From assembly GCA_947034895.1 (NCBI GenBank), contig OX344764.1, positions 64,523,348 through 64,587,347 of the forward strand: DNA of 64,000 nt, in the 5' to 3' direction. The notes under the pieces were generated by a model, which worked only from the letters and a program-made list of their open reading frames with translations, did no database searches and was not told the origin of the DNA. The translations under genes were made by a program, and so were the position numbers. This document shows, one piece after another, positions 7,862-52,402 of this stretch (position 1 is its first letter; every line of letters begins with the position of its first letter). Origin of the DNA: Rhytidiadelphus loreus (taxonomy: Eukaryota; Streptophyta; Bryopsida; Hypnales; Hylocomiaceae).

Positions 7862-8763
7862 TTAACTCCTAAAAGACCATTGTCCCTTCGGGGGACAAAT
7901 GGGATTTTAGGGAGTTACCTACAAGCTGGATTTTTGTTATGATTTCTCTAATTTTTTTTTGAAGATAGAAAAAATTGATTAGCTTCATGGAAATAATTTT
8001 TTTTTCCAATTGATGCCTGAGAACAAAAGTTAAGCTCAAAACAAGGGAAAGGGGGTAGCAAAAAAAAATTCAAAAAATTTGAATTTGAATTTTTGAATTT
8101 TTTTTCTCAATAGATTATATTTTTGTCTATATGGAAAGATTTGATTCATTCCATTTGGATTTGTTATGAGAAAGTTATGGACAATCTTGATTTTTAGGCA
8201 ATTAGAGCATCTTCTTAAAAAAATTACTTGTAGGATTAATTTCTTAATGCAATTTTAACAATTTTTCCAAAAATAAAGTTCCTAAAACAATCTCACCATT
8301 GGAATTAGGGTGTTATAATTCCATTTTATAGATATTATTAATTAAAATTTTCTTTCTATCCCATACCTATATCTACTTAATATTTTTTTAAAGAAAAAAA
8401 ATTAAGTTTTTTTGAATTTTTTTTCATTCCTAAACCCTTAACTCAATTCCCCACAATAAAGATTTGAAGTTCAAAACTCTATAGTGCAAAAAATTTAATT
8501 TAAGAAGGTTCAAAGTCAAATAATCTAGTCCCGCTATGTGTTGAAAAACTTGTTTTTTTCACTTTAAATGTAAATATCTTGCAATCTGTGGGGTCAAAAT
8601 TTCTGAAATTTTTTCCACACATTTTCAAATTAGTTAGGTATACAATCCTATGGTTAAATGTGTAAAAACAAAACAAAATTCAAATTTTTTTACTCTTTGC
8701 TATAGAAATGACAATTTTGAATGTTTTTTGGCAGAAAAAGGACTTTGGTCCTTTAGGGGTTAA
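7862..8763. mobile_element. TTAA-flanked non-autonomous DNA transposon, piggyBac-like, copy A
   Basis: The element is about 900 bp, AT-rich and without a gene. It starts TTAACTCCTAAAAGACCATT and ends TTTGGTCCTTTAGGGGTTAA, which are imperfect inverted repeats bounded by TTAA at both sides. It is a reverse-oriented homologue of 38139-39060. Shared blocks include TCCCTTCGGGGGAC near one end and, internally, a stretch around AAATAATCTAGTCCCGC. TTAA target duplication and TIRs starting CCC are typical of piggyBac elements; the family name is inferred from the ends only. Confidence 0.6.
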
Positions 8764-8865: not shown

Positions 8866-10275
8866 GCTTTGATTAGGGATAGTCACATTTTCTTCACTTG
8901 GCACTTGGAGAATGGAGAATGAGAAGTTGGGGAGGGTTTGGAGGAGCCAATGGAAAGCCGTGGTGGGTAAAGAAGGTGTGACACCCCTAAAAGATGTGTT
9001 GAGAGTGGAGAATGAAAAAAATGGAGAATTCATTTATCTAAATATAAGATTAGACATAAAGTTGGACGAATATCGGCAACAACAAAGGTAAAAGCAACAA
9101 TGAAGAGGTAAAAGTGTAGAGCACAAATGAATATACTTAGTTGGATATATCCTCCGCACTCCCAATCCTCACCTCCCGAAGATATATCTTCTGCACTCCC
9201 AACCTTCACCTCCCGAGGTTGCTTTATACTATGGTGGAGAAGTGCACCGGTCAAGAGTTGTAGGAAAATGGAGTAAATAATATGATTGGAGGAAATTTTG
9301 TTCAAGATTCACTAGATTGGATTTATACTATGGCCAAGACTTGTCCGGTGGAGAACTTCAAGCATAGATGAAAAAATGACATGGTTGTCTATGAGTGGCA
9401 ACACTTTTTGAAAGGGGAGTTTTCCGGAGGTCAAGTTTCTAGGGCGGCCTCAACCTCTTGGACAAAAAACTTGACCTCTGGAGAACTCCAACTTCATTGA
9501 TTGTCATTTCATCGTGACATCTCAATCGTGCAATTGAGGGCTTCTTTTATCTCAAATACCATTATCTCTTTACCTCTTTCTCTTTCACTTCATAGTGCTT
9601 TTGGTAGTGCGGGTGCTCCAACTACAGTTTTCTTTCACTTTCAAATGTTGTGTAGAATAGGCGCATCGATTTTTCATTTTCTCATTGAGCAAACGCATCA
9701 ATCATTTTCATTTTTTTTCCCTTTGAAGGTGTTTCTTGCTTGTATAATCTTTATTTTAGGGTTTCAAATTTAAACAAGTTTGAATAAGTTTTATTGAATT
9801 TATTAGGTACCGGATGCAAAAGTTATGGCTTCTCAAAACTCACTACAATAAAATTAAACGTACAAAATATGTGGAAGTTCCATTAGGGGTTACAATTTCT
9901 ATTATCGTGTGCTATCAAAAAAAATTCCTCTAAGTGAAGTTGTCCATTGGACTTCAGTTTGTGAAGTTGTCCATAAGACTTCTCCGCTTGGTGTTTAGAC
10001 TACAACTGGTCAAGACTTCTTTTTTGAATAGTTTCTTTTTTCTTTTTTTCTTCTTTAATATCCCACTAGGTACCTAAAATAACCATGTCTTGACTGGAAC
10101 TTATTGATCGACCGGAGCACTTCTCCACCATAGCATAAAGCGACCCTAAGAGTGCGGAAGATATATCCAACTAAGTATATTCTACCAACATGAAGTCAAC
10201 CCCAAGCCGCCACGTTTTCATTCTCCAAGTGCCAAGCGAAGAAGGTGTGTGACCCTACCCCTATTCTTTGTTTCT
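8866..10275. repeat. Long inverted-repeat element with internal 37-bp tandem duplication
   Basis: The arms at about 8870-9252 and 10095-10262 are inverted relatives. They share CTTGGCACTTGGAGAATG (8896-8913 against the reverse of 10218-10236), ATATACTTAGTTGGATATAT (9131-9150 against 10161-10180) and CTATGGTGGAGAAGTGC. The left arm holds a direct duplication: 9144-9180 and 9181-9217 are 37-bp copies starting GATATATC. Between the arms, motifs such as TGTCCGGTGGAGAACTTC recur. I saw no transposase gene. It is probably a 1.4-kb non-autonomous DNA transposon. Confidence 0.5.
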
Positions 10276-11893
10276 ACAGTGAACAATGGAAGTCCATCCT
10301 TCGCGGCCTCACTCAGCGTCCTTCACGGGCTACTCCATCCCTGATGACGGAAATTGTTGTCTGCAGCTAGTTTGATTGACATTGCGGAGTTTCTAGGAAG
10401 CGAGAGAGGATCGTTTGCTTCTCTCACGTAGGCTTGGTACTTACGATGGAGGGTGTGAATGCAGAAGAAAATATTGAAGCTCGCCGTTATGGACTTATCA
10501 TCGCACCTGTACACTGGTTGGTCACTTGTGCAGATCGAGACTCAAAGTGCAGCTTACAAAGCTCAGGGAGATCATTTCTTGCTCCACCTTAATTTAGCGA
10601 GCCTCTCACAACTCCTGGGGGGAGATTTCTGCTGAAAAAACCCGTTATAGACAAGATCGGAAGCACGCAAACCCTCACTTGGGGCATAGATCGAGCTAGG
10701 TTTCTTCTTGGAGCTTGGTAGCGGGGAAGCGTAATTAAGTGGTGTGGCCAAGTCCTTACCGACTTTTTTTTGTTTTCAGCTTTTTTTGTTGCAATCGTGG
10801 AAGGTTGGCCGGAGCGGCACTAATTTTGATTTTATGAGAGAATTCATGTGGCGCTCCGTCTTTCAGGTTATCGTGTTACAGGAAGTATCATAGGGAGATT
10901 ATTAATTGATCTCTGGTTCCCCGGATTGCCATTAATGAACTCCCGGCCTTCAGTTTTGAAATCTCGTGCCACTGATTTTGCGGGTAGTCTGTAGCAGCGA
11001 CGACCTCGCCAATGGTGCCGGAAGAATCGCCGGGCGACCCCTGCCGGAAAAGATGAAGTTCATCGGGTAATGGACAGATCGGGGTAACGGACAGGGGTTG
11101 ATCGCTCCTGTTCTTTTGGTTTTATAAAATTAAAAAAAAAAAAAATTAGAACATGGTGGGGGGGATGTCCTTCGTTTGTTGGACGGAATGGAGGGGCAGG
11201 AAGGCGCTCACCCGGCCATTCTTCCGGCAATGGCGACGGACCAAGGTCGTCGCTGCTGCTGCAGGTGTCCCATCAAGGTTAATTTCTCTGTGTTTGTAGT
11301 GACGGCCATTTAGCGGTGTCGCAGAAGTTCAGATGCGTTGATACAGAATGATGATGAGCGGTACCGATGTGAGGAGAGTGCGAGACAGCAGGACCAGAGG
11401 ATTAAAACTCAGAGCAACGTTAAGCTAAGAATTGTTCGTCAACGAACCTGAAAGAAAGAAAACACTAGTCAAGTATGAAATGGGATAATGAAGGAATGGC
11501 TGTCTAAGATATAAAATTATCTGTTTGACCTAGCTCGAAGCCCGTCATGTCTCTTTTGTTTGTCCCCAAGTTATTACTACCTTCAGCTGTATTTTGAATC
11601 ATGGTGTGCTTTGAGCTTGTCAATACTTGTTGCAGTAGTGTGATGCTATGCTATAGTCTAGCCTGTCACTAGAGTTTCATTGATCATTTGTGTGTAATCT
11701 AGTTTAGTATGTGAAGTTGTGGGAAAATGATAGATTTGTAGTTGTGTTGATGTTTCAGGCTTTCGTGGACTTGAACTTTGATGATGATGGCCAGCGAAAT
11801 GGGTATCTCAGCTTTTCATCTCCAGAAATGACTAAGTAAAACATCCTGAAATTCCTCCCAAGTTTTCTTCATTCACCAAGATAGTTAGCGCTT
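10276..11893 (+). promoter_or_regulatory. Upstream region and 5' leader of the kinase-EXO70 gene
   Basis: No supported coding exon was found. A GC-rich inverted repeat has arms at 10994-11036 and 11205-11256; both contain GCCGGAAGAAT and the GCAGCGACGACC block or its complement. An A-run lies at 11130-11146. A possible leader exon begins after the TTTCAG at 11753-11758. It contains a short upstream ORF, ATGATGGCC at 11801 ending in TGA at 11846-11848 (15 residues). A second upstream ORF, at 11894-11998, overlaps the main start. Confidence 0.4.
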
Positions 11894-11998
11894 ATGATCG
11901 GTCCAGTGAGTCCATCAGCAAGCACCAATGGCCGATCACTTCTCTCTAGTTATGAGCTGTATAGATTCTGTGTCAGACAGAGTGCGAGGTGGAAGTAG
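11894..11998 (+). promoter_or_regulatory. Upstream ORF overlapping the kinase start codon
   Basis: An ATG at 11894 lies 34 bases before the main ATG, in another frame, and its reading frame of 34 residues ends at a TAG at 11996-11998, inside the kinase coding sequence. A ribosome starting here would bypass the main start, so the arrangement could reduce translation. Whether the ATG lies in the mature leader depends on the unmapped transcription start. Confidence 0.4.
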
Positions 11999-13528
11999 CA
12001 AAAGATGGCAGTTGAATGAACACCAATGCTCATATTTGGCAGAAGAGCTCTTGAAAGTATCCCAGACCTTGCAAGCGAAGCTGGAGTCTGGAAACTTCAA
12101 GCCTGTTCGAGGCATTCAGAAGATTGTACTCCTCCATTTGCATGCCGCAGTAAAGCGGGCACAATTACTGGTGGAAAGATGCTGCTGTGAGACTTCGGCA
12201 AGTTGGCGTGTGGTCGCCATGACTTCAACAAATATCAAAGAGGAAGTCATAATCATTGTTTTGAATCTCCATCAATGGACATCTATGTTGGACATTGCCA
12301 TTGCTTCAGTGGAGAGAAGACCCTCTAAAGAGAACCTAGAGTTTCTGAAAACTTGGGAAGAAGGCTATCAGAGGTTGTTTAAGAAGCTGCATTCGAGCAA
12401 GCACCCACTCCAAGTTGCAGCACTTCAAGATCAGAAGACATTGCTTGAGAATGTTGCGGAATACTCAGAGGATGAGTATGCTTATGGAGTGTATTTGAAA
12501 TCACGGCTTGCTCCTATGGGAGGAGAAGTCCAGAGTGTTCCACAGTTGAAGGACTATAAAATTTCGCGTGAATTGGGACAAGGTACCAGTGGCATGGTTT
12601 TGGAAGTAACATGGATGGGGCATCAATGTGGTTTAAAAATTTCGAAAGGCAGTGAAAAGACCGAGGCTACCATTCTGGATCGGCTCCATCATCCGAACAT
12701 TGTGCGTTTTTTCCACTATTGGGAGGTTCCTCCTCCGGACCGTAATTCTTACATGGTGATGGAGCTTTTGCCTTCTGACCTGCAGAAGCACATTTTGAGG
12801 GAGTTGAGTCGATCATCAAGCCAGTCTCACAAGAAGAGTGTCGGTGTGCCATTCATTTTGTCTGTTGCAATTGATCTCATGTTTCAAGTGGCACAGGCTA
12901 TGCAGCATGTACATGACCAGAAATTAACTCACAGAGACTTGAAGACTTCCAACATACTTGTGAAGCCGGTGCCGGAAAGTATGAGCGAGTTACACTCCCA
13001 AGGGTATTTGGAAGTGAAATTGGCGGACTTTGGATTGGCAAAAGGATACATGGCTAGCTCAATTTCTGAAGGACTGACTCGCAATATGGGCACAACCGCC
13101 TATGGTGCACCAGAAATATTTGGGCAAGAAGAGACACAGACACACAAGAACTTTCCTCCCAAAGCTGATGTTTGGAGTTTTGGCATGGTTTGCTGGGAAA
13201 TTCTCACTGGACAGGTGCCGTTTTCAGAGGAGAGGTCTAAGGCAAAATTGCACAAGAGAATCAGATTTGAAGGCTTGAGGCCAAGTTTTCCAAAGGACTG
13301 TCGTGCTTATTTGCAATTTTGCATCGCTAGTTGCTGGGAGTTGCAACCTCAACGGCGACCCAATTTTACTGATCTTTGTAGGATGCTTCGGCATGCCCAA
13401 CTTTTGAATTTGGGATTGATTTGTTTGGAGGACACGGGTAATTCGTTTGGATATTCAGATCGAGCAGGTTTAATGAATACGATGAATTTCAATTCAACAA
13501 GTTCTGAAGTGGAATCAACCAAATCATG
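11928..13528 (+). other. Kinase half of the fusion (exon 1), with MLKL/HeLo-like helical N-terminus
   Basis: Exon 1 encodes residues 1-533 plus two bases of a codon. The catalytic features are intact: glycine loop GQGTSGMV (217-224), lysine K237, helix-C glutamate E246, HRDLKTSN (335-342), DFG (367-369), and GAPE for the APE motif (393-396). KADVWSFGMVCWEILTG follows, as in tyrosine-kinase-like/Raf-related plant kinases. The kinase should therefore be active and is cytosolic, as there is no signal peptide or membrane segment. The N-terminal 160 residues consist of predicted amphipathic helices. They resemble the four-helix bundle in front of plant MLKL-like and MCA-type proteins, but this is judged by eye. 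A C-terminal Ser/Asn-rich tail (500-533) leads to the linker. Confidence 0.85.
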
Positions 13529-16500
13529 GTACCTATCTATTTGTCTGCTGAATTGTGTCTTTTTTCTTAGATTGTCTATTCCTTGACGAAATACAATAAG
13601 TTAGTTTAAAACACATAACTTTATAAATTTTCATTTTTCAATACAATTTGGTGTTGTGTATGCAATGATTTTGAAAAGTTTCAGACTTTTGAATATAACA
13701 TTGCTCACTATTGTTTGTCAGGTTTCGAGGTGGAATTGGATTGATTTCAAATTTTCGCAACAAAGGACGTGGATACAAACCAATCCAACATACAGTAGAA
13801 GGTAGTAGAATCACTTTTGCTTGTTATGGAATGAAATTGAATTATGTATATATTTTTGCTTAAAGATTTAGGTGTTAGGTTTAATTGAATTGTTGTCCTT
13901 AATAGTATCATTATTATTTTTAATCTTATTAGTAATAATTTGGAAGAAGCCTGGTAATGTCTAAAGGTGTACTCATGATCAAATTAATCAGTTAGTAAAT
14001 TATTACATTAGTTTCTAATTTATTGAAAATGCATAATGCATTTAAAACATTATATACTATAGAGTGTTTTGAGATAAGGTGGACACGAAATTAAGCATGA
14101 ATTTTTTGTCATTAAACCCTAAGAGAATTGGTTAAGAGAGCTTAAGAGAGCTTGGTAGAAGGGGGCATGTAGATCTGAACTTAAAAACAAACAAACTCAT
14201 ACTCCACCTAGAGGCTGTTGGGGGTCAAAGAATAGCCAGTTCTAGCTTGATGAACATTGGTTGGAGTGATTTTTGGTGAATTATGGTATTAAACTTGTCA
14301 TTTGAAATTTAAAAATAAGATATAAACCCTTTGAATAATCAAATTGATTTATGAAGTGTTTTCAATTTTATGTGATGTTTATGATTATCTTATGAATTTT
14401 GGCAGATTCAAGTAATTTTACGTCACAACCTATTTTGGGGATTGTCAATGAATTTTCAGTTAAAAAAAGAATGAGGATGTGATGGTTAGCTGTTTGCAAA
14501 ATCAAGTTTTCCCAGTTCACATATCAGAGGACATTGAATATAGAAAGTGCACTTAGAGATTGAAAATATAAAAGAATTGAAAGATTGACTTTTATAGATT
14601 GCTAACCACCTTGATGATGCAAATTAGTCTTGTTAAACGATTAAGCTTGATAAAACAGTTATTTAGCAAACCAAATAAATGTTTTTTCAAGCTTAATCGT
14701 TGAAAGAATGGAGCCTGTGACCGAGGTAGTTAGCCAAAACAAAATTGGATGAATAGGTGCATTTTCATTTCTACAGTTCCCTTGAAAGTCATCCATTCGA
14801 TAGTTTTATTCCTCAGCGTCCTTACTTGGTTAATTTGGGACCATGTATGATAACATGTTATTCTTTTATGTTATTGCAGGTTCAAATGATCACACATTAC
14901 AACCTACTCCTGAGATTGTAAGTCAAAAGCCCCCCCAAAAGTAAGACATTGAGGTTTGATCTTTGCAAAATTCCAATGAGGTATATGTTGATTTAACTTG
15001 AACACACAGAAAAATGATGAAAGAAGAAGATTTGAATTTAAAGAGATATAAAGAATCCACAAAATTAATAGTAGTAAAAGAATGGCTCTTAAAGACCATT
15101 AATCAATCTTGTTGTAGCCATTGAAACCTTATCAAATGATAATTCTATTGAGGGAATGTAAAAGGCATGTTAGACTACTATAATTGTACTATATATGGCA
15201 TTGATGTTACTTATTAAACATGAATAAATGATTCTTGTACCCTGCACCAAAAATCGTTTGTATCGTAATCACATTGTTTGTTTTCAACCTCTATTTGACT
15301 GCCAAAGGTACCGATTCTAGGCCAAATCAAAGGGTGGAGAAATCAGGGTGAGATGGAGGAGGTCGGAAGGAAGCAAGCTCGAAACAAGGATATAGGAGAA
15401 GCATTTAATGCAGAGCTTAGGAATGCAGGTCACGAGGCAACTGAAAAAGTAAGCAATTCAGCATGGTTCCCATTATTATATTGGAATTTTTTTGTGGGGT
15501 CATGTTGGTAGTGAAAAGGGGATTTTATATTCTCTTAGAATGCATTTTTTGGATACTGTATGAATAAACTACGAATTCTCAAAGAGCTGAAAATAGGTGT
15601 TCCTAAAAGCGATCATAGAGTCTCATGAATAGTGGGAGTACATTTTAGGCAAGGATCTCTAGTGTGCAATTTTAGAAAGCGTGCGATTTTAGGTGTAGTT
15701 ACCTTGCATTACATTAAAGCAACAAGCTTGAGATAACAAAAAATCCTAGTACACCTTGAAGGCCACCCAAGTGCATTGAAAGATATGATTTGCTGTTGGT
15801 AGTTACGGTGTTGGGGTTCAGTCGAAGGGCTCTTCTAGGGCAAGTTGGGTGTAAGCATGACTTAGCTAGACTTCTATGGCCACTTCTGAATGCGAATGGG
15901 GTTGTTCAACCTCCCACTTTGAAATTGTGTAAGAAATTCATACGCAGCGATAAAAGGTTGGCTCTTGTACCCAACGTGATCTCCAGCTTTTTACAGGTCT
16001 CCCGTTGGAAGCACACAGTTACATATGTTAAATGCTTAAAAGGGATACCAATAGTATCCTAGGTCTACCTTATAACTTTCCCACCGTCGTGCTTTTAGCT
16101 GTAGTTATGGTGGTTAGAAATTTTGAAGAGTACTGCTTGTAAATGGTTCTGTACTTGAGCTAAGAGTGTGAAGGTGAGGAATAGCATGTTTATTTTTCTT
16201 TCTTTGAGGGGAATTAAAACTTAAGGTTGAGTACTGATATGTTTTGACAATGATTGTGTGATATGGCTGTGAATGAAGGTGAAGACACATGCTATCCCAC
16301 CGGCACACATTGACAGCACAATCAAAGCCGCTGAATCTGTGATGGATCAGTTTAATGTTTCTCGTCAGGTAAGGACTGCATCATTTGGCCCTGCATCATT
16401 TGATCGATGTTCGCATCTCAGAATAGAGCAAAGAACATTAACCCTAGAGGATCAAGATTTCATGATTTGATTGATCATGTTGAGGAAAAACATCATTCTG

Positions 16501-19500
16501 GCAGGGCTAAATTTTAGAGCACCCAAATCCATGAAGGACATTGCATGCTTTGGTCATAAAATATGTTAAAATCAACCTAAACAAAATCTTCATATGACCC
16601 ACTCAAAAGTGCTAAAATGATTTGCGGACCAGTTTTGGGCCCTTATTCTACAGGTGCTCAACGTGTGTATTACTTTTGATGACTCTTGATGTACTTTGGT
16701 ATAAAGGTGGAAACGAAGGTGCCTCAAGTACCCAAAAGCTATAGGCGCAAATTTTTGGCTGCCATTGACCAGCTTACTGAGAATCTGATCTTTGATCCGA
16801 GTTTGAAAGCAATGGACATGGCTCTGAGTCATGCGAGGGATTTGAACATTGGTGGAGAGATCCCGGTGCTTCTGGGTCATGCGAGGGATTCGAACCATGG
16901 TCTAGAGTTCAAGGAGCTCCTGACAAATAGCAGGTGTGTCTTGGAGATAGGAACCATCATTTGGCAAATACCTTTGTCTTGGTAGCTGGATTCCGTATGC
17001 TTGTAACGGTTTGTATTTTCCGTTGTTTCCAGATGAATGGAGAATGGGATGATTAGGTACTAGCAAATTCACAATTATGCTTGAGGGTTAATTAATATCT
17101 TGCTGTTTTGTGCCATTGGTAGTAAGCCAATAGATCCCGCAGGACTCCAGACCCTTAATCCACCAGTTCTTCCAGTTCTAATTTCACCAAGAATTGTTCT
17201 TCAACTAGCTGAAATGGCGCAGCTTTTAGTTGGTGCTGACCTTCATCAATGTCTGAAGATCTACAGGTAACGATCATGCATGTTCTATGAATCCTTGAAA
17301 TCTACGGAAAATAGTACAATTACACCTTCTTTGTTAGCACTATTCAACGCCATGTGCATTTTTGTCTAATTTATTATCCCATCCTACCTATACGACCTTC
17401 AATACTACATGCAACGTGCGTAGGCGACGATGGCAATCAAAGCAACACAGTTTATCCTCTATACTGTATGATACACGATTTCATAAGTTCACTACGAATT
17501 CAAACACCGTCTATTTGAGTATCTCTGGATAGATAAGATTCGAATATTAAGTCATTGATGCGGTGGGCGCAGGGATGTAAGAGCTTCCACTTTAGAGACG
17601 AGTCTATCGAATTTGGGTGTTGAAAGACTAAGTGATTATGATATTTTCAAAATGCCGTGGGAGTTGCTGGAAGGCAAGATCAGAAATTGGATTCAGTACG
17701 TGCGCGTTGAGGTAAGCACATCATGCATAACCTTCCTTTTATGGACGTCCATTTTGTGATGTTGGCCTCGGAAATTTTGAGGCAATGAAAGAAAAAAAAT
17801 ATTGTGATTAATCCCTCTTCTATGACTGCTCTCAGGTAATGCTTCTCTTTTGGGCCGAGCGGCAGCTATGTGACCAGATATGGGCTCGCCACCACCCTCA
17901 TGGAGAGAAATGTTTTGCAGACGTGACTGAATACAGCGTTCACATGCTGTTAAGCTTTGGAGAAGCCATTTCCCGGAGCAAACTAGCACCGAAGAAACTT
18001 TTTGCGCTTCTTGATATGTATGTAATTATGGATGACCTTCAGCGTGAGGTGATTGATTCTTATTTCCTCACTCCTCATAATATATGCGTCCAGGGCATAT
18101 CCCATTCACCAAGCATCAGTTGGCAGTCCTCAGGAAGTTTTTTCTAGTTAGTTTGAAGCTTGTAGATCAAATGTCCTCTGGAATTGTCTCATTTCTGTAA
18201 CCCTAAGTGCTCAAGTTGATAAAATAATAATTCCCATTTGAAATCTAATTGTCGATTGTAGTAATGGTCAAAACATATTTCTATTGTTGAAAAATGCAGA
18301 TTATGTTTGTTCCATTTAGTTGGTACATTTACTTACCTTCCTAAATGATCTTATTTCACACTCTCATAGATATGGAAGCAGTCACTTTTACTATTTGGAC
18401 ACTTGGGGATTAAGATCGTTGACAGTACTCGAGAATAAGAGACATGTTGTTTAATGAAAGGCGTACGTCTATCAAATCTTACTCGACCGTTTTACGTTGT
18501 GCTTTGTATCAGATTGAACTAGTGTTTTCAGCTGATGCGGCCACAGGCATGCGGGAAGCATGGACCACACTTTTCAGGCGATTGGGTCAGACAGCTAAAG
18601 ATACTTTAGCAGACTTTGAAGATGTTGTGGACAAAGATCCAAACAAAACGCTTCCTCTCGACGGAATGGTTCATATGCTTACTAGCTATGTCGTCAATTA
18701 TGTCAAACTTCTACTGGAGTAAGTTTCCACCTATACTCTTGTATTGGCTTGAGTTCTCACTTTTTCTTTCAGTACCAAAAAAAACACTTCTTTTGTCATT
18801 AAGCATGAGGATTTTCTCTACATGTTTTGCACATTCTTGCTGCTTCTTCTATCTTAATTCTGGGATTTAATTTATTTTTGGAATTTCTTGTGGTTTGATA
18901 ATTCACCAGTCAGTCGGCCAACCTGATAGTAGAGGATATGAAGCATTAAGCATTTAAACCAATATGTAGGCGTGTGCTTTCATTGAGAGATAACTATAGA
19001 GCTCACTGAAGAGATCTCTTTGGGTTATGGGAACCAAAGCTCTCTTGAGATCAATTTATCTCACTAGGTAAGAATTTCTTATTCAACCATTCAAAGTGGG
19101 AGGTTTAGACCGCTATCAAAGGGCCAGCAGACAGATCCATGTCCACTCAAAGATCACAACTTCTATTTGCTCCGGTGCAGCTATCAGTATACATTAAACA
19201 AGTTGCTCTCGGACGGCACAGTTGACGACAAGACATCAAACCTGGCAGCTGCTATCGTTCGCATAATGTCAGCATTGCAAAGTAACTTAGAGGAGAAATC
19301 GAAGCTGTATGAAGACAAGGGGCTTTCGTACATATTCCTGATGAACAACATCCATTACATGGTGGAATCTGTCCTCAAGTATGGACACATCGCTTCCGTT
19401 CCTAAACTTGCTGCTCATGTGTGCTCAAGCACTTGATATGCTTGCTGTAATTTTCCATAATTTGAGCACCATGGCGTTATGCAGATCAGAAGCAAAGGAT

Positions 19501-20976
19501 ATGTTAGGTGATGATTGGATACAGAAACAACGAAGATTTGTTCAGCAGTATGGCAGTAGTTACCAACAAGCTTCCTGGAGTAAGGTTTGCAACAAGTCCG
19601 AGACTCTGCATAGAATGCATCTTATTCTTGCGCACCATATTAGGCTCTTGTGACAGTGTCTTTGTCTAACTCCTAAAGGACCAAGTATTCACGGTTTAAA
19701 ATTGGATTGATGATGCTGTGAAATATATAATTCAGTAGGGGCCTAACTTTTCACCGCCAGAGTCCGTGAAGAACATTGCATGACTTGGTCAAAGAATGAA
19801 TAAAATTGGACGAAATAAAAGTCCCCTTTTGACATTCTCAAAACTGCTTTGAAAAAAAATAAAAATATGCCTAATTGGGGCCTCGAGGTCCTTTTAAGGG
19901 GTTAAACAATCTCCAGCACAGGTGTAAACAATACCTGAAAGAGAGTGGATTTTCAGGTCTTGCAATACATAACGATATCTGAAGGTGGAATATCCGATGG
20001 TGATAGTGGCATTTCGAAATCCCAGCTTGAAGAAAGGTCAGAAAACATAACTTGAAATGAGCCTTTTCTCACTGACAATGAGCAGTTGTGGATGGTGGTG
20101 AGACTCAATTGTTGGGCTGCTTCTGTTATGCAGGTTGAAAGGATTCAATTCGACGTTTGAAGATGTGCACCTGCGTCAAACGCAATGGGCAATTCCTGAC
20201 AATGAGCTCCGACTTGCAGTTCAAGTGCAGGTTCAAGACATTCTTCTATATGCCTACAGCTCATTCTTGAGGTACCATTCAAATCGATCCCTTGCATTTA
20301 CTTTCCTACCACAAAAGCTCTAATTTCCTTATCTAAGGTACAGGATACCCAAATCCGAAGTACCAGATCCCACCTCTTATACCAACCCCTGTTACTAATA
20401 GCATCTCAGCAATTCATACACTTCGCTAAACCGTTGTGGACCTGATCCTGTCTTGTATACCAACCCCTTGGACTAATGGCAAATCATCTACTCATACACT
20501 TGATTGGTCTTATTTGCAAGGGTTGTAAGCACTACTTGGCCAAATGCATATGGAAACCTATTTTTGAATGGAAATAGAGTAGTCAACTGTCAGTTACAGT
20601 GGTCTACAATATCTGCTTTGAATGATTGCGCAAGTATTTCGTAAATTGTGATACAGATTTGGTCCCAAAAGATTTGGCTCTTGCAACCAAGACCATTCCG
20701 TATCTCTATTTTGATCTCGTGAGTGTATATATATATATATATAATGTTACATGCTTAAAGTGATGCAAATAGTATCCTCTTTTCTGAATAGAACATCAAA
20801 TAGCACATCTAAATTTGCCTTGGCTTTGGCTTTGCAGTATGCCGATTGAGGAGATCCGAGTGCCTATGTACTTGAAGTACAGTACTTATGACTTGCAGCG
20901 TATGTTGCTTGACTTGTTCGCTGGGTCGTTCATGGAGTTGGCCTACGATGCAACAGGCACTCGCAATAGTCTGTGA
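11928..20976 (+). CDS. Helical N-domain / protein kinase / EXO70 fusion protein, 1,177 residues
   Basis: Fifteen exons form one frame: 11928-13528, 13722-13801, 14880-14917, 15308-15448, 16279-16368, 16707-16933, 17123-17266, 17573-17711, 17836-18048, 18513-18718, 19181-19378, 19485-19584, 19957-20036, 20134-20271, 20838-20976. Every intron is GT-AG and every phase matches; the spliced length is 3,534 bases. Residues 1-160 are mostly helical, 210-490 form a Ser/Thr kinase, 535-620 a linker, and 621-1177 an EXO70. EXO70 is the exocyst subunit that binds plasma-membrane phosphoinositides and tethers secretory vesicles. The alternative is two adjacent genes: retaining intron 1 gives a stop at 13584-13586 (552 residues), and EXO70 would then start at an ATG in exon 4 (15353) or at 16273. 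The fusion is favoured because the three linker exons have clean sites and exact phases, and because EXO70 lacks its own normal N-terminus. Translation may be damped by an overlapping upstream ORF. Confidence 0.75.
16279..20976 (+). other. EXO70: EXO70 half of the fusion (exons 5-15)
   Basis: Residues 621-1177 align by eye with EXO70A-type proteins from about residue 54 to the C-terminus. Recognisable blocks are THAIPPAHIDSTIKAAESVM with QFNVSRQ, DVRASTLETSLSNLGVERLS, MPWELLEGKIRNWIQYVRVE, LLSFGEAISRSKLAPKKLFA followed by LLDMY, the DGMVHMLTSYVVNYVKLLLD block, YIFLMNNIHYMV, RSEAKDMLGDDWIQ as K-SEAKDMLGDDWIQ, RQTQWAIPDNELR, and a short C-terminal helix YSTYDLQRMLLDLF. The normal N-terminal ~50 residues of EXO70, part of the helix that packs with other exocyst subunits, are missing and replaced by the kinase linker. 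The region with KNPQKYI in standard EXO70 is shortened. Exon 6 (16707-16933) carries a small internal duplication. The half is otherwise complete, without stops or frameshifts. Confidence 0.92.
19666..19905. mobile_element. Short TTAA-type element in intron 12 of the fusion gene
   Basis: About 240 bp, starting CTAACTCCTAAAGGACCAAG and ending GGTCCTTTTAAGGGGTTAA. The ends are inverted repeats of the same TIR family as 38139-39060; the left TTAA is mutated to CTAA. It lies entirely inside the intron between 19584 and 19957 and does not touch splice sites. Part of its interior resembles sequence near 16530 and 60340. Confidence 0.5.
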
Positions 20977-38138: not shown

Positions 38139-39060
38139 TTAACCCCTAAAGGACAAAGGCCTTTTTTTCTGTCACAAAACACTCAAAACGGCTATTTCTA
38201 CAGAAAGAGTAAAAAAATTTGAAAATTACTTTTTTTCCACATCTAACCATAGGATCTTACACCTTACTAGAATAAAAATGTGTAAAAAAAAATTCAAATT
38301 TTTTTACCATACAGATTGCAAGATATCTGCGTTTAAAGTGAAAAAAACAAGTTTTTCAGCACATTGCGGGACTAGATTATTTGACTTTGAACATTTTTAA
38401 CTTCAATTTTTTGCACTACATAGTTTTGAGCTTTAGATAATTATAGTGGAGAATTCCATTGAGAATCTAGGAAAAAAAAGGTTTTAAAAAAAACTTAATT
38501 TTCATTCTTAAAAAAATTGTAGAATAATGGTAGATACAAGATTGAATGAAAATCTATTTTATTAATATATCTAAGATAGAATTAAAATGCACTAATCCCC
38601 ATAGTGAGATTGTTCTAGCAAGCAAACTAAACCATGTGGAACTTTTTTTGTTGAAAAATTGTCAAAATTGCATTCAAAAATGAATCCTACAAGTTATTTT
38701 TTCAAGAAGACGCTCTAATTGCCCGAAAAACAAGATTGTCCATAACTTTCTCATAAAAAATCCAAATGAAATGAATCAAAGCTTTCCAGATAGACAAAAA
38801 TAAAATCTATGAGGAAAATTTTTAGAAAAATAATCAAATTTTTGCAAATTTTTTTAGCTGCTCGGTCTCCCTTGTTTTGAGCTATATGGGCACTACTTTT
38901 GTTCCCGAGCATTGATCGGAAAAAAATTATATTCCCTCAAAGGTAATCAGTTTTTCTATCTTCAAAAAAAGTTTCAAAAAATCAAGAGAAAAATTCAGCC
39001 CGTAGGTACCTGCCCGAAATCCATTTGTCCCCCGAAGGGACTTGGTCCTTTAGGGGTTAA
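38139..39060. mobile_element. TTAA-flanked non-autonomous DNA transposon, piggyBac-like, copy B
   Basis: This is the clearest member of the family at 922 bp. It starts TTAACCCCTAAAGGACAAAG and ends CTTGGTCCTTTAGGGGTTAA, with inverted repeats of about 16 bases inside TTAA. Sequences outside TTAA (GAATTCC left, CCTTGAA right) show no further duplication. It is inverted relative to 7862-8763, and both carry a second inverted block CCCCGAAGGGAC near one end. Non-coding. Confidence 0.65.
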
Positions 39061-39857
39061 CCTTGAACCGCTCCGACGTCTAATTTTTGGGAGGCTAAAA
39101 AATTAAAACTCAAGTTTCATCCTCATTGCTACTTGGATGAAAGTGATCTTAATTTGTGAAGATACTTTATCAAATTGTTGTTTTATCTAATGGTTGAATT
39201 TGGTGTTATTAGAATACATGTTTTTCTAAAATTACAATTGTGGAAGTATGTCAAGTGGTTGATTAAGCCCAAATTGCATTGACTCTAGTTCAAAATTGGA
39301 TTTGCAAAAAAAAGGCCATAGATTTAAAGAACACAAAAATTTCAAAAAATCACCATGTGAAGACAACCTCATTTCAAATCCATTCTAACAAGTTTTACTC
39401 AAAAAATGATAATATTTTGTTTGTAATCGAATTTAGAAGGAATTTTTAAATTTCCCTTTTAAAATTTATAAAAAAGTATTGGTGATAGTATTGGTGAATC
39501 TAACCATATGGATGGAATTTGAAATTCCAAATTTACAACTTTTATTCATTAGATGAGATCGGGGGGGGGATTGGAGGGTCGTTATGGGCTTGTTCCCAGC
39601 TTTGTTCTCTCCAATCTTCTCGAACTCCGGTGTCAGATTTAAAAATAAAGAAATAAATAAATTTAAGTCAAACAAAGTTGAATTTAAGAAAAACAAAGTT
39701 AAAATTTTTTTCTTCAAAAAAATTGACCTCGCCCTCCACAACACACACAAAACACATGTAATGTCATATATTAATTCTAAAATATTCTTCCAAATAGTAC
39801 TTTACAATGATTTTTTCCAAATTGTCAATTTTGAAGAAGACTTTGAGCATTTTGGGA
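39061..39857. other. Gene-free repeat sequence
   Basis: No coding sequence was supported. 39110-39480 is an inverted relative of about 640-1025, so it belongs to another dispersed repeat. A G-run of nine lies near 39561-39569. Confidence 0.4.
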
Positions 39858-41412: not shown

Positions 41413-44400
41413 ATGCAGGGCCCAAGGAAGCGGCTGGATCAGGTAATTGAGGTTCAATTCCTTTGATTCCTATTTCGTATCTTCACGGTTTATGCTCATT
41501 GCTTGTGGTCGGATAACTTTAATGTGCCGTCATGATCCTTATCATGTGCTGGATTGAAATCGAGCATAGAGAGTAGGTTCATGTTATGTTCAAATTAGGC
41601 CTCTAGCTCTTCTCTCGTAATCAAACTTGATCTTAATTCTTGCTATTGAATGACAGACTTTTCCAGCTCGGAAAGTCACCAGTACTGCTTTTCGGGCAAA
41701 GTCCAAGGTGGACGTGTCCTCTTCTTTAATCGATAAAGAGAATTACTATGTTGGATCCGTTCATCAAAATGGGGCATCGAGAAGAGGTGGTAGCGTTTGC
41801 TTGGGAGAATCTCGGAAAGGTTTTGCTGGGAAGAACAGAGTGTCTGACGTTGCAAAAGTTGAAGACTCTTATGAAAGGAATACGACCGACAGCTGGCTCA
41901 ATAGATGTCAGCCTAGTGTCTCCAAATTTGTTCGTCCAAGACCCATAGAGTCTGAGCTGAAGGACGATAAGCTCAATAGATGTAGGCCTGGTGTTTCCAA
42001 ATTTGTGTCTCCAAGACGCATAGAGCCTAAGCTGAAAGACGATGATTCACGCGAATTCACTAGTCGTAAGCCAGATGGAAGTCCTATTGGTTCTACTATA
42101 TCTTTTCAAGGCCTTGATGATGCACCCATTGAGAAATTTGCAGACAAGCGTAAGCTCCTTGTCGATGAGAACCTCCGAGAGTCGAAGAAGCATAGAGTGG
42201 ATGTCGACTCTGTGGAAGATTTTGTTGCCTGTACGCCGCCCCTGGATGTAACGAATGTAAATATGGGTACTACTGGAAGGTCAGTCAATCAAGATATCTT
42301 CAGCCAAAAAGTGACTGTATCGCAAAGGAGCTTTTGGATAGATGACAGAGAGATCTGTGAGACTCTTTCAGATTATTGTGTTGAAGATCAAATGACCGAG
42401 AGAGAACAACGGATGGAGGAAGACCATTGCGTAGCAAGTAGGTTGTACGAAGTAGACGACATGGGAATGGGAGAAACAGAAAACGGAGCAGATGATCTGA
42501 GTTTGCCAGAAGCGCTGCAGGAAATTTTTAGGGCTTGTGAGGCTGAGAAAGCTCAGGATGAATGTGAAAATGCAGGCCATAATGCTACGCTTGAGACCGG
42601 TGAAGATGTCATCTTCTCTTCCTTACCTGGGTCGCCAGAAGAGAAACTCAATCAAACACTGCGGGCAGTGGACCCTGCGATGTGCGAGTCAGATTTCCAC
42701 TTACGTACTCCTGGTGTCAAAGGAGGTCTATGCTGGATTACACATCCAGGCAATAGTAAAATTTTAGAGGATCAGCCATCCGGTATTTCGAAGTCTGAGG
42801 ATAGTGGTTCGTTGTTCTCACCTGGAGATGCATTCTGGCATGAAGCTTTTGAAGCAGTCGGCGGTATATTGGTTTCAAACGATGATCGTCGGCTGTCAGA
42901 ACAAAGCAGTCCAGGATATCAAAAATCGGTGGGCAGGACCAGAGGTGTAGAGACAATGGAAGTCGATGGACGGCTTTACAGCAGTCAGGTGGTTCAAATC
43001 AAAGAGGTTGAAGATTTCGCTACGCCTGCAATTCAACAGTGCACTTTGCAGGAATCCAGTAATGGTAAATCCGTGCTGGCGTTACATAGCGGTACGAAGA
43101 CAGCTAACAGGGGTACTGCAGGAATGTATTGTGATTTACCAGTACGTCGATTCCGTTTGAGCGACCAAGGAAATCTTCCTGACGAGAGTATCGATAAACT
43201 TGTTAACGAGGAGTTCCCCGACGTCACTCACACCAAAATCCCCTGTCTACCAAATCTTTCCAGTCTAATGCCTCCTAGTCTGACAGATGATGCTAAAGAT
43301 AAGGTCAGGTCAACGTCCTATGATCTTACAGAAACCAACCCAGCTCAGATGCAGGAACAAACATCTAATGGAGTGACTGTCGATCCAGCACCATATCCTG
43401 TGCCGAGAAGTAGCCTCGCTTCAAGAAGTCTTGCAACAGGACCATGTTCCCCATTGGTAGAGCCTTTGATTGAAGTCGACGCTCTAGGAAGTTTATCGTC
43501 GAAAGTCCTGGAGTTAGCATCAACTTGTGCAAAGGGAGGAGTTGAGCCAGAGAATGGAAAGAAGAACGCTTCGATCGTGAAGTCGAAACCTCAATATAAA
43601 GTTGAACTCTCTAAATGGCTTCCTCCTGAAATATGTTCTTTCTTTGCCAAGAAGGGTTTAACAAGGCTTTATCAATGGCAGGTACAAATCATTTCTCATT
43701 GGTGTCTTATAAGCTTATTCTAGATGCTCTAAGATTAGATTTTCCTCTGCGAGTTCACTGGAAACCTGTGAACAGTATGTGCTAACTGCGGGGCAGGTTT
43801 CTGAGAGGGGAAGCTGTAAATTAGAGGTATTTTAAAGTCTAGTGCCTACTTCGACTGAATGCAGGGCTGTTGGTAAGTGCTGAGCCCTTCTAATTTTTGT
43901 CGTTGGGAGGGTAAAGGTGGAGTGTTTGGAGATAGACGGCGTTTTGGATGGCCGGAGTCTTGTGTACTGCGCATCTACAAGGTAATAGCCGTTAAGTTCT
44001 GTTGCCCTGTTGCCCTGTTGTGCTAGTATGTCCACTTCGTATGCATTCTCCCTCTTCGATTGCGCTTGAGATTTTTCCCTTCTCTTTCTTGTTCCTGATG
44101 TTTGTTTATAAAGTTTGGGAAGATCCTTTAACAGCGATGTGGGGCTGTTTGATATGAATAGCTTAGCATGTTTTTTGTGTGTTAATTTCGTGTGGTTGAG
44201 ACAGTGCTGGGAAGAGCCTAGTGGCTGAGTTGCTGATGCTTAGACGAGTTTTGTCAACGGGGAAGAAGGCCTTGCTGGTGCTACCATATGTCTCGCTCTG
44301 CTGTGAGAAGGTGGCACGCTTTGCTCGTGTGATTATTCAACTGCTTTATTTATACTGTTATGCATGCTTGGATTTGAGTACTTATTCAGATTAGTTCAGT

Positions 44401-47400
44401 TCAGTCAAGTAAAATAATTCTGGAGTGATTTTTGTGTCTCCTTGAAACTGTCAGTATTTCCACAACTGGCTTATCTCTTCATGGACAGCAATCACTTTAG
44501 TTGGTTCATAAGTGTCCATGAATCCAATGTATCATGATCAAGGTGCATTCTGCAGGCAACCCATCTTCAGGCAATTTTGCAACCACTTGGCAAACGAGTT
44601 CGAGAATTCTATGGAACACAAGGTGGTTCAAGCCTACCCGAAGACACATCAGTGGCTGTTTGCACAATTGAGAAGGCTAATTCGTTAGTCAATAAGCTGC
44701 TTGAAGAGGGGCGATTATCTGAACTCTGTGTTGTTGTCATTGATGAGCTTCATATGGTGAGTTATCCTTGTGCATCGTTGCAGAAATTTGATATTGAATT
44801 CTAGACCAGCATGACATATCTTATACGCACTACCAGCCCATGAGATGTGTAACCGACGGCCTTTAGCATTTTTTTCGTTACTCCGTCGCGATCCTAGTTG
44901 TTATCAAATTTGATAGATGTTCCAATGTTGGAGCTCGAAGCTGTTCGTAGAAAAGTCCTAGTACAGCCGTTCTTTAGAGACTATCAAAGCAAACATTAAC
45001 TTGGTCCTAAGAGGGGTGAAAATGTATGTGCAGGTTGGAGACAAAGATCGTGGTTATCTGCTTGAGCTGCTCTTGACTAAGATCCGCTATGCAAGGGGCT
45101 GTGAAGAATTCTTACCAAGTAGTAATACACAAGTGAGGACTAGCTCAAGTCCAAAGTCTACTGTGTTGCAGATCGTGGGCATGAGTGCTACGATGTCCAA
45201 TGTGTCTGAGGTTGCTAAATGGCTGCAGGTGCCTCTCTGCCCCAGTCCCATGACCTTTTTGAACTATACGAGGAACAGTACATCGAGCTTTACTTATTGC
45301 AACAGAAGTTTGATGAGTATATTTCGCTTATGCTTTAATCCGTCAAACATCTTATTGTGTATCTCTTTCGGTTTATTATTTCGGTTTCTCCTTTCATTCA
45401 TTCTTACATCTAACCACGGGGAAGAACTATACACTGTAGTTATCCGAGGTTTCTTGGGATGAAATAACATTTCGTGTGGTTGGATATCGTTTGTTTGGTC
45501 AATGCGTCCCACACTAAAATGCAGTCATCGTTGGTATCCTTCAGGCTGCACTATATCAGACAGAATTCCGACCAGTACCTCTGGATGAGTTCTTGAAAGT
45601 TGGTAATACAATTTTCGACAAGAGGATGGAAATTGTTCGAAAGATTAGGGAAAGCGCTGACCTCAATGGCCAGGATCCTGACCACGTTGTCGAATTGTGT
45701 CATGAGGTACTGCTGTCTTCGTTTCTTTATCATTCATTAGTCCTATTGTCAGTCTCCTCGACATCAGCAGCTGTTAGCTTAATTTTGGAAATTAGTGGAG
45801 GAAGTACTTAACAGGCGGTTGTTTGCTAATTAGGTGGTAAGCGAAGGACACTCAGTGCTGGTGTTTTGCTCCAGCCGCAAAGGATGTGAGACATCGGCAC
45901 GTCATATAGCCAAACACCTACCTCCATTTACTGTTAAGAAGAAAAACACCAACGGCCCAATGGATGGGGCTGCAGCTGTTGAAGACTTACGGCGATGCTC
46001 AGTTGGACTTGACCCAGTTTTAGCAGATACGTTGCCAGTAGGGGTCGCGTACCATCATGCGGGACTCACGGTATGACAACTACTGCTAGATTTCATTTGA
46101 CGTTCGACTGTTTTCTTTTGCAAGGTCATGTGTATGAAAATCGCATGAAATTCGAAAAAATTGTTATAGAAAAAATTGTCAATGGAATCACCATATACAT
46201 CCTGACAGAGAGGTTATGGCAAGCAGATTACGGTACTGACACCTTCTTTCGAATTAGGCTGAAGAAAGAGAGGTTGTTGAGACATGTTTCAAGAGTGGTG
46301 TGGTGCGAGTTCTTGTTGCAACGTCCACTTTAGCTGCAGGGGTAAATCTTCCAGCTCGTCGAGTGATTTTCAGGCAGCCAAAAATTGGACGTGATTTTGT
46401 TGATACAACGCGATACCGCCAAATGGCAGGTCGAGCTGGTCGAGCCGGAATTGATTCCAAAGGAGAGAGTGTGAGTTATCTTTTGCATACTGCTGATTCC
46501 GTTGACATAAATGGCTCAGATGGTTACATTGATTGTATTTAGCGTCACTGCAAGAATGTAGCGCTGTGTCCCTAATATTGACAACGACCTATTCTTGTGG
46601 AATACGTGACAGATTTTAATTTGCAAGCCTGAAGAGGCAAAGCGTATAATGGAGATGATGCAGCAGGAGTGCAAGGCGTTGCAATCATGCTTGGCGGATG
46701 ACAAGAATGGAATGATGCGTGCCTTGTTGGAAGTAGTTGCGGGTGGAATTGTGCAAAGCGCGGTTGACGTGCAGCGTTATGTGCGATGCACACTTTTGAA
46801 TGCCACGCAGCCTTTTGAGGAGGTTGTAATTGCCGCACAAGATTCACTGCGGTGGTTGTGTTACAAGCGCTTTCTCGAGTGGAACGCAAGTTCTGAAATC
46901 TATGCCACTACACCTCTTGGTCGTGCTGCGTTTTCAAGCTCACTTAGTCCCGAGGAGTCTCTGGTACGGTATAACGCTCATGATTCCTCTTGTTAGATCT
47001 TATGCTTGCAACAGTCCGCCTTTTTTCCTCCTTTATGGTTTTCTGTCGCTTCCTAGGTCATGGTTGCAAAGGTCATATGTCTTAATGCTCATGCTTTGGG
47101 GCAGATTGTATTCGAAGATCTCGCAAAAGCTAGGGAAGGATTTGTGCTGGCATCTGATTTGCACCTGATCTACGAAGTCACACCCACCTATGTTGATTTA
47201 GAGCCAGATTGGGGCATATTTTTACAACGGTACATGGATCTTTCACCCATTGATCAGGTTAGTAACTCTGGTGACAGAAGATGATTCAAATTTTAATGTT
47301 GTGTCAACTCCGAATCGGCGAATTAATGCAACAATTTGCGCCACAGTAATGGCAAGCTTGAAGCATGACATTATTGTATACTATTGGTTTTTTTCTTCTG

Positions 47401-49160
47401 TTCTGTGGTTTAACTCTTTTCAGAATGGCAAGTTGATGTAGTCGAGCTCCCACAATATCAAGTTCGTGGGTATTACAAAATAACTGCGTAGTAACTACGG
47501 ACACTATTGCTACAGTCTGAGGACGTGTTTGGTGTTCAACCCACCCATTATAGTCTATAAGCATATTAAATTTTCTTCTGAAAGTAGGTCGTTTTAGTGA
47601 GGACAAGCATCATTCATTTTCATAGGATCGTAACGTGAAACGCATCATAATCTAATTCTTAATCCCCAGCAGTTCTTGATCGTTACTGGCTCGGTTTCAT
47701 CTGAAAACAGGCTGTAGGCAACAGAGTTGGCGTGATGGAGGCATTTTTACTTCGCATGGCTCATGGAGCACCAATTTTGCAGCATCGTAGTGGCGGAAGA
47801 TCTCGTGGTGGCAAAGCCGCGAAAGGGAAAGTATCACCTCTTGTACAAAAGTCTAGGTGGAAAAGCCCCAGTGGAGCTCAACTTCCAGTTGATCAGTTGC
47901 TACGAATCTGCAGACGATTCTATGTTGCACTGATGCTCTCGTATCTCGTGCAGGTATTTTGATTGAACTTTCAATTATTTACATCTTTATCTAGAACAAT
48001 GTTTTATTTGCCAAAAATTTCAAAGATTGTCACATGCTCATAAGGCTTACTATCTTGGAACAGGAGGTACCTATGTTGGAGATTTGTGAGCTTTTCAAAG
48101 TGCAGAAGGGAGCATTGCAAGGACTGCAAGACAGTGCTGGAAAGTTTGCTGGCATGGTTGCTGCCTTCTGCGAAAGGTTGGGTTGGAGTGATATGGGAAG
48201 CTTAGTTGACAAATTTCAGAAGCGTGTTTCGTTTGGCGTAAAATCTGAAATTGTGAATCTTACGGAAATCCCCTTCGTGAAGGTGTGGACTGTGAACGTT
48301 GAAAGCTATCTTGCATCTCCTTTCACTAGCTAGAGGGCTTGTTCTTTGATATTTTTTGAAGGAAGGTTTTCGTCTGCTTGCCGCCAGCTGGTTTGACTTT
48401 TTTGTATACTTTAGGAGAATATTGCAGCTTAAGGAATTTTCTTCAAATTGAGGGAAGGTTGGCAAGTTTGTGTTCCCAAGGCTTGTTGCTTACCTACGGT
48501 CCTTGCATTCAGGCGGCAAGAGCCAGAGCACTTTTCAAGGCAGGGCTGAAGAGCATACAGGCAGTAGCTGAAGCTACGATTGACGAGCTCATCAACGCAC
48601 TCTTTTGCAGCACGTCTCGGAAAAGTCAAGGTGGGTACATTATCTATGAAATCGGGATTAATGTTTTCCGTACACTTTAAAGTTTTGTACATGATTAATG
48701 ACCAATTCTATTTCGTACTTGTCTGCAAGCCTCTGATCGCTTTGAATGATTCATTTGCAAAGTTGACGTGCAATAGACGTTCGTTAATGATGAGAATAAA
48801 CCCCATCTCTGTCGTGATTTCCACCCGTAAGACTCGTCGCTGCTTGCAAATTTTATGTGCAACAGTGTAAAAAATAAAGCAGACCACAATTATAATGATG
48901 TGAGAACGCATAGAGTTGTGAATTGACTAGTGTTGCATCTTGCAGATGAGAGCAGTAATGGTCAGCAGTGGCTGCAGGTCGGCGTAGCCCGTAAAATTAA
49001 AAATGCTGCCCGGCGAATAGCATTGGATCGCGCAGAAGAATCTCGAGCAGCAGCCTTTTCAGCTTGTCAGGCTCTGGGTGTTCAAGTGCACGCTGGGCTT
49101 GCATTGCCTTTAGCTGCACCAATCGATGACGAAGAAGGAAATGGCTCTGGAGAGGTTTGA
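41413..49160 (+). CDS. TEB: TEBICHI/POLQ-type DNA helicase without polymerase domain, 1,510 residues
   Basis: Fifteen exons: 41413-41442, 41657-43681, 43917-43981, 44205-44310, 44556-44756, 45034-45228, 45545-45706, 45834-46070, 46258-46470, 46613-46963, 47105-47257, 47711-47953, 48064-48282, 48513-48630, 48946-49160; all GT-AG with matching phases. Residues 1-660 are a poorly conserved, acidic N-terminal extension. The superfamily 2 helicase follows: STSAGKS (705-711), DELH (805-808), SAT (860-862), QMAGRAGR (1062-1069), then the winged-helix and Hel308-like ratchet region and a helix-hairpin-helix (1402-1420). The detailed match is to plant TEBICHI, the POLQ orthologue that acts in microhomology-mediated repair and replication-stress tolerance in the nucleus, through KKIKNAAR-like and AAAFSA..LGV blocks that follow the helicase. 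TEBICHI then carries a long linker and an A-family polymerase; here a TGA follows at 49158 and no polymerase exon was seen before the opposite-strand gene. A possible donor (GAG|GTTTGA) at 49154/49155 leaves open a distant exon. HELQ is the main alternative identity. Confidence 0.85.
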
Positions 49161-52099: not shown

Positions 52100-52402
52100 T
52101 GCGCAGTGAAAAGGCAATGTGCCTATCACAAGTATGAAAGAAGTAACGATAGATTGCTTGAGCGCTAAATACCACTAGCTATTTCCCAAAGCTGCCGTAT
52201 GATAACACGAGTCCCAGAGCCGCTAAGGAGAGAAAATGGCAATGGGAAAATAAGAACTGAGGAGAGAAAACTGCAATGGGAAAAGAAGAACTGAAGAGAG
52301 GAAATAGCAATGGAAAAATGAGAGAAAACGACAATGAGAAAATAAGAGCTGAGGAGAGAAAATAGTACTGAGAAAATAGGAGGTGGCCCGGTCTTATATA
52401 CT
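52100..52402 (-). promoter_or_regulatory. Core promoter and repeat-rich leader of the Dof-like gene
   Basis: On the minus strand AGTATATAAG at 52393-52402 is a good TATA box, placing transcription start near 52365 and giving a leader of about 265 bases. The leader contains five imperfect copies of a 34-bp unit, at 52229-52262, 52263-52296, 52297-52320 (short), 52321-52354 and 52355-52380, each starting AGAG(A/G)AAA on the plus strand. The transcript would therefore be CU-rich here. Confidence 0.5.

Follow-up and report, generated by a model that had tools for sequence, protein, structure and literature searches.

An MLKL-like kinase and an EXO70A-type sequence in one open chain of fifteen exons in the moss Rhytidiadelphus loreus: perhaps a single chimeric gene

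In a stretch of 64,000 nucleotides from the moss Rhytidiadelphus loreus (contig OX344764.1 of assembly GCA_947034895.1, positions 64,523,348 to 64,587,347; hereafter the window), a protein kinase is followed on the same strand by a relative of the exocyst component EXO70. An earlier note, made from the letters alone, had read the two as one kinase-to-EXO70 frame of fifteen exons and 1,177 residues; when rebuilt, the model came out the same, covering 11928-20976 of the + strand, with GT-AG sites at 14 of 14 introns, agreeing phases throughout and 1,177 residues before the stop. Its parts are as follows.

11928..13528, + strand: exon 1, encoding a predicted HeLo/MLKL-like four-helix bundle (residues ~1-130), predicted brace helices (~134-194) and a kinase with intact motifs (~210-487)
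13529..13721, + strand: intron 1, in which an in-frame stop (13584-13586) ends the unspliced kinase reading frame; donor score 2.98
13722..13801, + strand: linker exon 2, 80 nucleotides, likely the true continuation of the kinase
14880..14917, + strand: linker exon 3, 38 nucleotides, tentative; in frame and bounded by GT-AG, without coding signal
15308..15448, + strand: linker exon 4, 141 nucleotides, coding-like, with an in-frame ATG at 15353
16279-16368, 16707-16933, 17123-17266, 17573-17711, 17836-18048 and 18513-18718, + strand: the first six of eleven EXO70A exons
19181-19378, 19485-19584, 19957-20036, 20134-20271 and 20838-20976, + strand: the last five EXO70A exons
20134..20976, + strand: the C-terminal tail of EXO70, in the final two exons, depleted of basic residues

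When the 1,177-residue protein is scanned with Pfam, Pkinase is found at residues 210-485 and Exo70_C at 811-1157 (330 bits), along with a weak Exo70_N match (634-696; 25.6 bits against a cut-off of 23.9); both domains, kinase and EXO70, are certainly present beyond chance. That one gene spans the two is, in our judgement and not by computation, fairly probable, in which case both halves would be carried by one mRNA.

The kinase half, its N-terminal bundle included, is predicted to fold as MLKL does, with a match to MLKL2 and MLKL3 of Arabidopsis (PDB 6lba, 6ka4) that the earlier note had not recognised; in the predicted fold a HeLo four-helix bundle at the N-terminus is followed in the same chain by brace helices and a kinase-fold domain, an arrangement common to the plant MLKLs (AtMLKL2/3), wheat Pm13 and the window protein. 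Plant MLKL is, however, a pseudokinase, and in AtMLKL3 the HRD and DFG motifs are degenerate in the alignment, whereas in the window protein the catalytic motifs K, E, HRD, N, DFG and APE are all intact; because of this the half is called MLKL-like here and is not classed as MLKL. Pfam DUF1221 has no match at E<=1 in the window protein, while 10 of the 20 rows of the kinase alignment match it at that threshold. Catalytic residues are likewise present in the resistance protein Pm13, a kinase fusion of the MLKL type (PMC10951266; this and the other articles are cited from those parts of their text that were available); an EXO70 partner of the MLKLs is not described in the available parts of the articles, in contrast to the window frame. 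If the half folds as predicted, an immune or cell-death output becomes more plausible.

For the kinase alignment and tree, 19 relatives were taken from the best 120 of 450 matches, leaving out P0007, P0012, P0021 and the rows below P0022. In the resulting 20-row tree four proteins of Ceratodon purpureus, P0001-P0004, come out as sisters of the window kinase (support 98/98), although the latter is flagged as a long branch (0.5) and long-branch joins are warned of elsewhere in the tree. These sisters share with the window protein the same N-terminal region and kinase and likewise have a C-terminal extension; they differ in the partner, which is a second, C-terminal kinase domain in 4 of 4 and EXO70 in the window protein. 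Remoter relatives carry armadillo repeats (P0022, Ceratodon), a weak VWA match (P0005, Ceratodon) or a weak Hsp70 match (P0013, Sphagnum), and the bundle-kinase unit, seemingly joined to varied partners in other mosses, is possibly a mobile signalling unit of this group; the first protein search admitted only lengths of 0.55-1.75 times the query and so favoured multi-domain proteins, for which reason a rate of fusion cannot be given. For either half, the closest named proteins among the matches listed belong to Ceratodon purpureus. Upstream of the kinase ATG, the GC (guanine plus cytosine) content at 10001-12000 is about 0.45, far above that of the AT-rich spacers, and 10001-11927 holds no open frame of at least 100 codons; this part is possibly promoter and 5' untranslated region.

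The best solved relative of the EXO70 half is AtEXO70A1 (4rl5; E 2.4e-135). The half has the Exo70_C fold and is nested among moss EXO70A proteins in a 22-row tree (100/99 for the seven-row set); its relatives were drawn from the search listings, 21 being used in the tree and 11 in an alignment of invariant sites. EXO70A is, in work on Marchantia, the clade that keeps the ancestral exocyst role (PMC12626893). The closest relative among the matches listed is an EXO70A-type protein of Ceratodon (63% over 88% of the query), which the window sequence joins in the tree with support of only 90/89; its end branch measures 0.53, compared with 0.035-0.18 for its six companions in the seven-row moss clade.

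Of 214 sites invariant in the 11 EXO70A relatives the EXO70 half keeps 154, but of the 16 belonging to the normal first exon only one; the N-terminal helix for EXO84 and exocyst binding is missing. Used as tblastn queries, nine canonical EXO70A N-termini (eight from mosses, one from a liverwort) gave no hit below E 4 in 11928-16400 on the + strand, and their best match anywhere in the window lies on the - strand at 58 kb (E 0.059). Exon 4, tried as a diverged EXO70 first exon, was rejected in this role, its score being reached by 197 of 500 shuffles in local and 191 of 500 in global alignment; the remark of the earlier note that EXO70 is here without its first ~50 residues thus holds, the usual first ~53 being absent. 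The lipid-binding site of Exo70 we take to lie at the C-terminus. There, the tail has 4 lysines and arginines versus 10-13 in the 11 relatives and a net charge of -3 versus +2 to +4, and the whole C-terminal half has a charge of -9 versus +4 to +11, so that the basic lipid-binding patch appears to be gone, as judged by the charge of the whole tail.

Exocyst subunits of the Exo70I/EXO70A kind have an N-terminal helix and a basic C-terminal tail, whereas the window EXO70A is without both; the absence of the helix and of most basic residues of the tail argues against an ordinary place in the exocyst, and the half probably no longer joins the complex. In Marchantia, exocyst association of Exo70 proteins is exchanged by swapping the N-terminal domain, EXO84 binding is abolished when arginines of the N-terminal helix are changed to glutamate, and lipid binding depends on conserved lysines of the lipid-binding site (PMC12626893). 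It would thus be very improbable that the kinase is brought to sites of secretion by an EXO70 half still able to join the exocyst or the membrane: the Exo70_C core is well kept, as its 330 bits indicate, but both the helix and most C-terminal basic residues are wanting, and in Marchantia it is the N-terminal domain that decides exocyst association. Of the functions offered in the earlier note, an integrated decoy therefore fits better than a kinase that the exocyst tethers or that acts upon it, with which the loss of the helix and of the tail's basic residues is hard to reconcile.

Outside the first exon the half keeps 77.3% of the invariant sites, versus 89-99% in the relatives, each left out in turn; its constraint seems to be relaxed or its target changed. 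Such retention also fits relaxation without any function and, with the long branch and the lost functional segments, is what might be seen had part of an EXO70A been copied to a place behind a kinase and drifted there as a decaying duplicate, or if the chain were a chance transcript. The 557 EXO70 codons, spread over eleven exons, contain no stop and no frame break, however, whereas neutral simulations to equal divergence gave at least 2 stops in 300 of 300 runs (mean 9), and we consider functionless drift improbable.

As to the junction, exon 2 had been picked in the earlier note without any database search. It was submitted to a free local homology test, afterwards to position-anchored alignment and last to a ranking among candidate exons. 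In the anchored alignment its score is reached by 5 of 1000 shuffles with P0001 and by 3 of 1000 with P0002, two near-identical proteins that count as one witness, and by 22 of 1000 when all four sisters are summed, compared with 798 of 1000 for the unspliced kinase tail; the linker before the C-terminal extension thus resembles exon 2 in 2 of 4 sisters. In the ranking, exon 2 comes first among the 21 phase-compatible candidates for a second exon, and 0 of 401 control exons reach it (chosen stretches outside the gene, on both strands, some perhaps coding). From this homology exon 2 is likely the true continuation of the kinase; a kinase ending at 13586, which in the earlier note would have spoken for separate transcripts, has become less likely without being eliminated.

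A number of results weigh against a single gene. The free local test of exon 2 was negative, with 372 of 2000 shuffles reaching its score, and in the anchored alignment it is not matched by P0003 (581 of 1000) or P0004 (501 of 1000). Codon preference amounts to 0.0 bits per codon in exon 2 and -0.08 in exon 3, against 0.13-0.43 in the other exons; exon 4 reaches 0.31 and has a donor of 7.5, but a weak acceptor (0.66). The codon and splice models had been trained on exons 1 and 5-15 and the ten EXO70 introns, which therefore score well by construction, while exons 2-4 and their junctions are untrained. The GC content of introns 1-3 (0.275-0.308) lies inside the range of the spacers (0.255-0.360) and not in that of the ten EXO70 introns (0.356-0.443); this does not settle the matter in favour of two genes, since in a recent fusion intergenic DNA would have become intronic. 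Exon 4 offers an ATG at 15353 from which an EXO70 could start on its own; it stands in a GAGATGG context, with a TATA-like match upstream at 15190; there are seven TATA-like matches in 13587-15354, against a background of about 1.9 per kb at 22-40 kb, and poly(A)- and TATA-like matches in this interval are too frequent to serve as a decider. Lastly, no other kinase-EXO70 protein was found among 26 matches to the EXO70 part, nor in the best 120 of 450 or the best 120 of 325 matches, although in the EXO70 searches scoring was confined to the 7,994 and 7,996 candidates with the most words in common, which makes this absence weak, and fusions split by annotation would be missed.

The open bridge itself does not help the single gene either. 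The best chain with up to three linker exons was scored against 142 control segments, 64 of them low in GC, some of the high-GC ones perhaps containing real exons. The chain of the earlier note scores 54.0, a value reached with three linker exons by 90 of 142 controls (16 of 64 low-GC), and with one or two by 25 and 53 of 142 (1 and 3 of 64). The interval's own best chains score 38.8, 50.9 and 63.0 for one, two and three linker exons, the last of them beating 54.0, and are reached by 48, 60 and 62 of the 142 controls (5, 7 and 6 of the 64); the mild excess over low-GC controls is in our reading due chiefly to exon 4, and it does not separate a fusion from a stand-alone EXO70. With the open bridge at chance level, its score was rejected as proof of fusion. 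A version of the test without limit on exon number over-spliced (best chain of 20 mini-exons, 176.6, reached by 30 of 100 controls and 0 of 40 low in GC) and was discarded.

Much of this would be accounted for by two adjacent genes of like orientation: an MLKL-like kinase whose end is at 13586 or shortly beyond exon 2, and an EXO70A with a replaced N-terminus that starts likely at the ATG at 15353. Introns 1-3 would then be spacer, as their GC content suggests, the coding signal would begin only at exon 4, the ATG (and perhaps the match at 15190, one of the seven) would be put to use, and a bridge at chance level would be expected. The arrangement is a strong rival, though in our view somewhat less likely than a single gene, since the homology of exon 2 suggests that the kinase frame runs past 13586, the sisters P0001-P0004 extend beyond the kinase in 4 of 4, exon 4 cannot be recognised as an EXO70 first exon, and the pyrimidine tract of its acceptor ranks among the best 5% of 181 AGs nearby and the best 9% of 971 AGs elsewhere. 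The single-gene claim of the earlier note thus emerges somewhat ahead, and the halves may share a transcript.

The reading that we favour, though we rate it a little short of even, is a single chimeric gene, made of a kinase with a predicted MLKL fold and an EXO70A lacking helix and basic tail and working as a kinase fusion immune receptor. The fast-evolving EXO70 half, freed from the exocyst by the loss of its docking helix and basic tail, would be the bait for pathogen proteins directed against the exocyst, and the intact kinase with its HeLo bundle would be the signalling or cell-death half; for the window gene, all immune steps are inferred. More specifically, the protein might be sensor and executioner in a single chain, an MLKL-type death kinase with its own EXO70 decoy that senses an attack on secretion without a nucleotide-binding leucine-rich-repeat receptor (NLR), which we hold to be unlikely.

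Kinase fusion proteins and EXO70 baits are both already known; their pairing would be new. NLR-EXO70 fusions occur in wheat and barley, and a pair of EXO70 and AVR-Pii in rice (PMC4759884); in the Triticeae receptors EXO70 is part of an immune-type protein as likely bait, as is proposed here. These receptors have NB-ARC and LRR domains, whereas no Pfam match to either was found across the whole window protein model (NB-ARC at E<=0.01), and the monocot receptors use EXO70 clade F (PMC12626893), whereas the window protein is of the EXO70A type. Among mosses, the protein kinase-NBS-LRR (PNL) genes join a kinase to another domain; they were formed probably by exon shuffling, with a phase-0 intron between the parts, and the last linker intron of the window gene is also in phase 0, but the partner is NBS-LRR (nucleotide-binding site, leucine-rich repeat) there and EXO70 here (PMC3352924). 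In a cell-death assay, the kinase domain of a moss NLR gave a response that was modest and variable (PMC11218826). In open-licence PMC articles, neither a search for kinase-EXO70 fusion proteins nor one for MLKL with Exo70 returned such a fusion in the titles and abstract beginnings of the matches listed.

If the single chimeric gene is real, EXO70 would have been captured independently by two kinds of receptor, grass NLRs and a moss MLKL-type kinase; bait and output would lie in one chain, testable in a moss; and an EXO70A would have escaped the exocyst through loss of its docking helix and apparently also of its lipid patch. Were the genes separate, the EXO70A copy would still be an unusual paralogue that has likely escaped, next to an MLKL-like kinase with its catalytic motifs intact.

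Elsewhere in the window, an open reading frame of 671 codons (41708-43723, + strand) has no Pfam match at E<=1 and is possibly the first exon of the gene just downstream. Two stretches in the same direction (46649-46996 and 48378-48680, + strand) match Pfam HTH_61 (E 6e-20) and, weakly, helix-hairpin-helix/DUF7898; they are perhaps exons of a gene for a DNA repair helicase of the HELQ or POLQ type. A frame for a Dof zinc-finger transcription factor lies at 50747-52129 on the - strand (E 7.3e-17). The kinase-EXO70 locus is flanked by long inverted repeats (581-1071 with 39057-39546; 8089-8668 with 38232-38831), 78-86% complementary and about 30-39 kb apart, which are likely related transposable elements.
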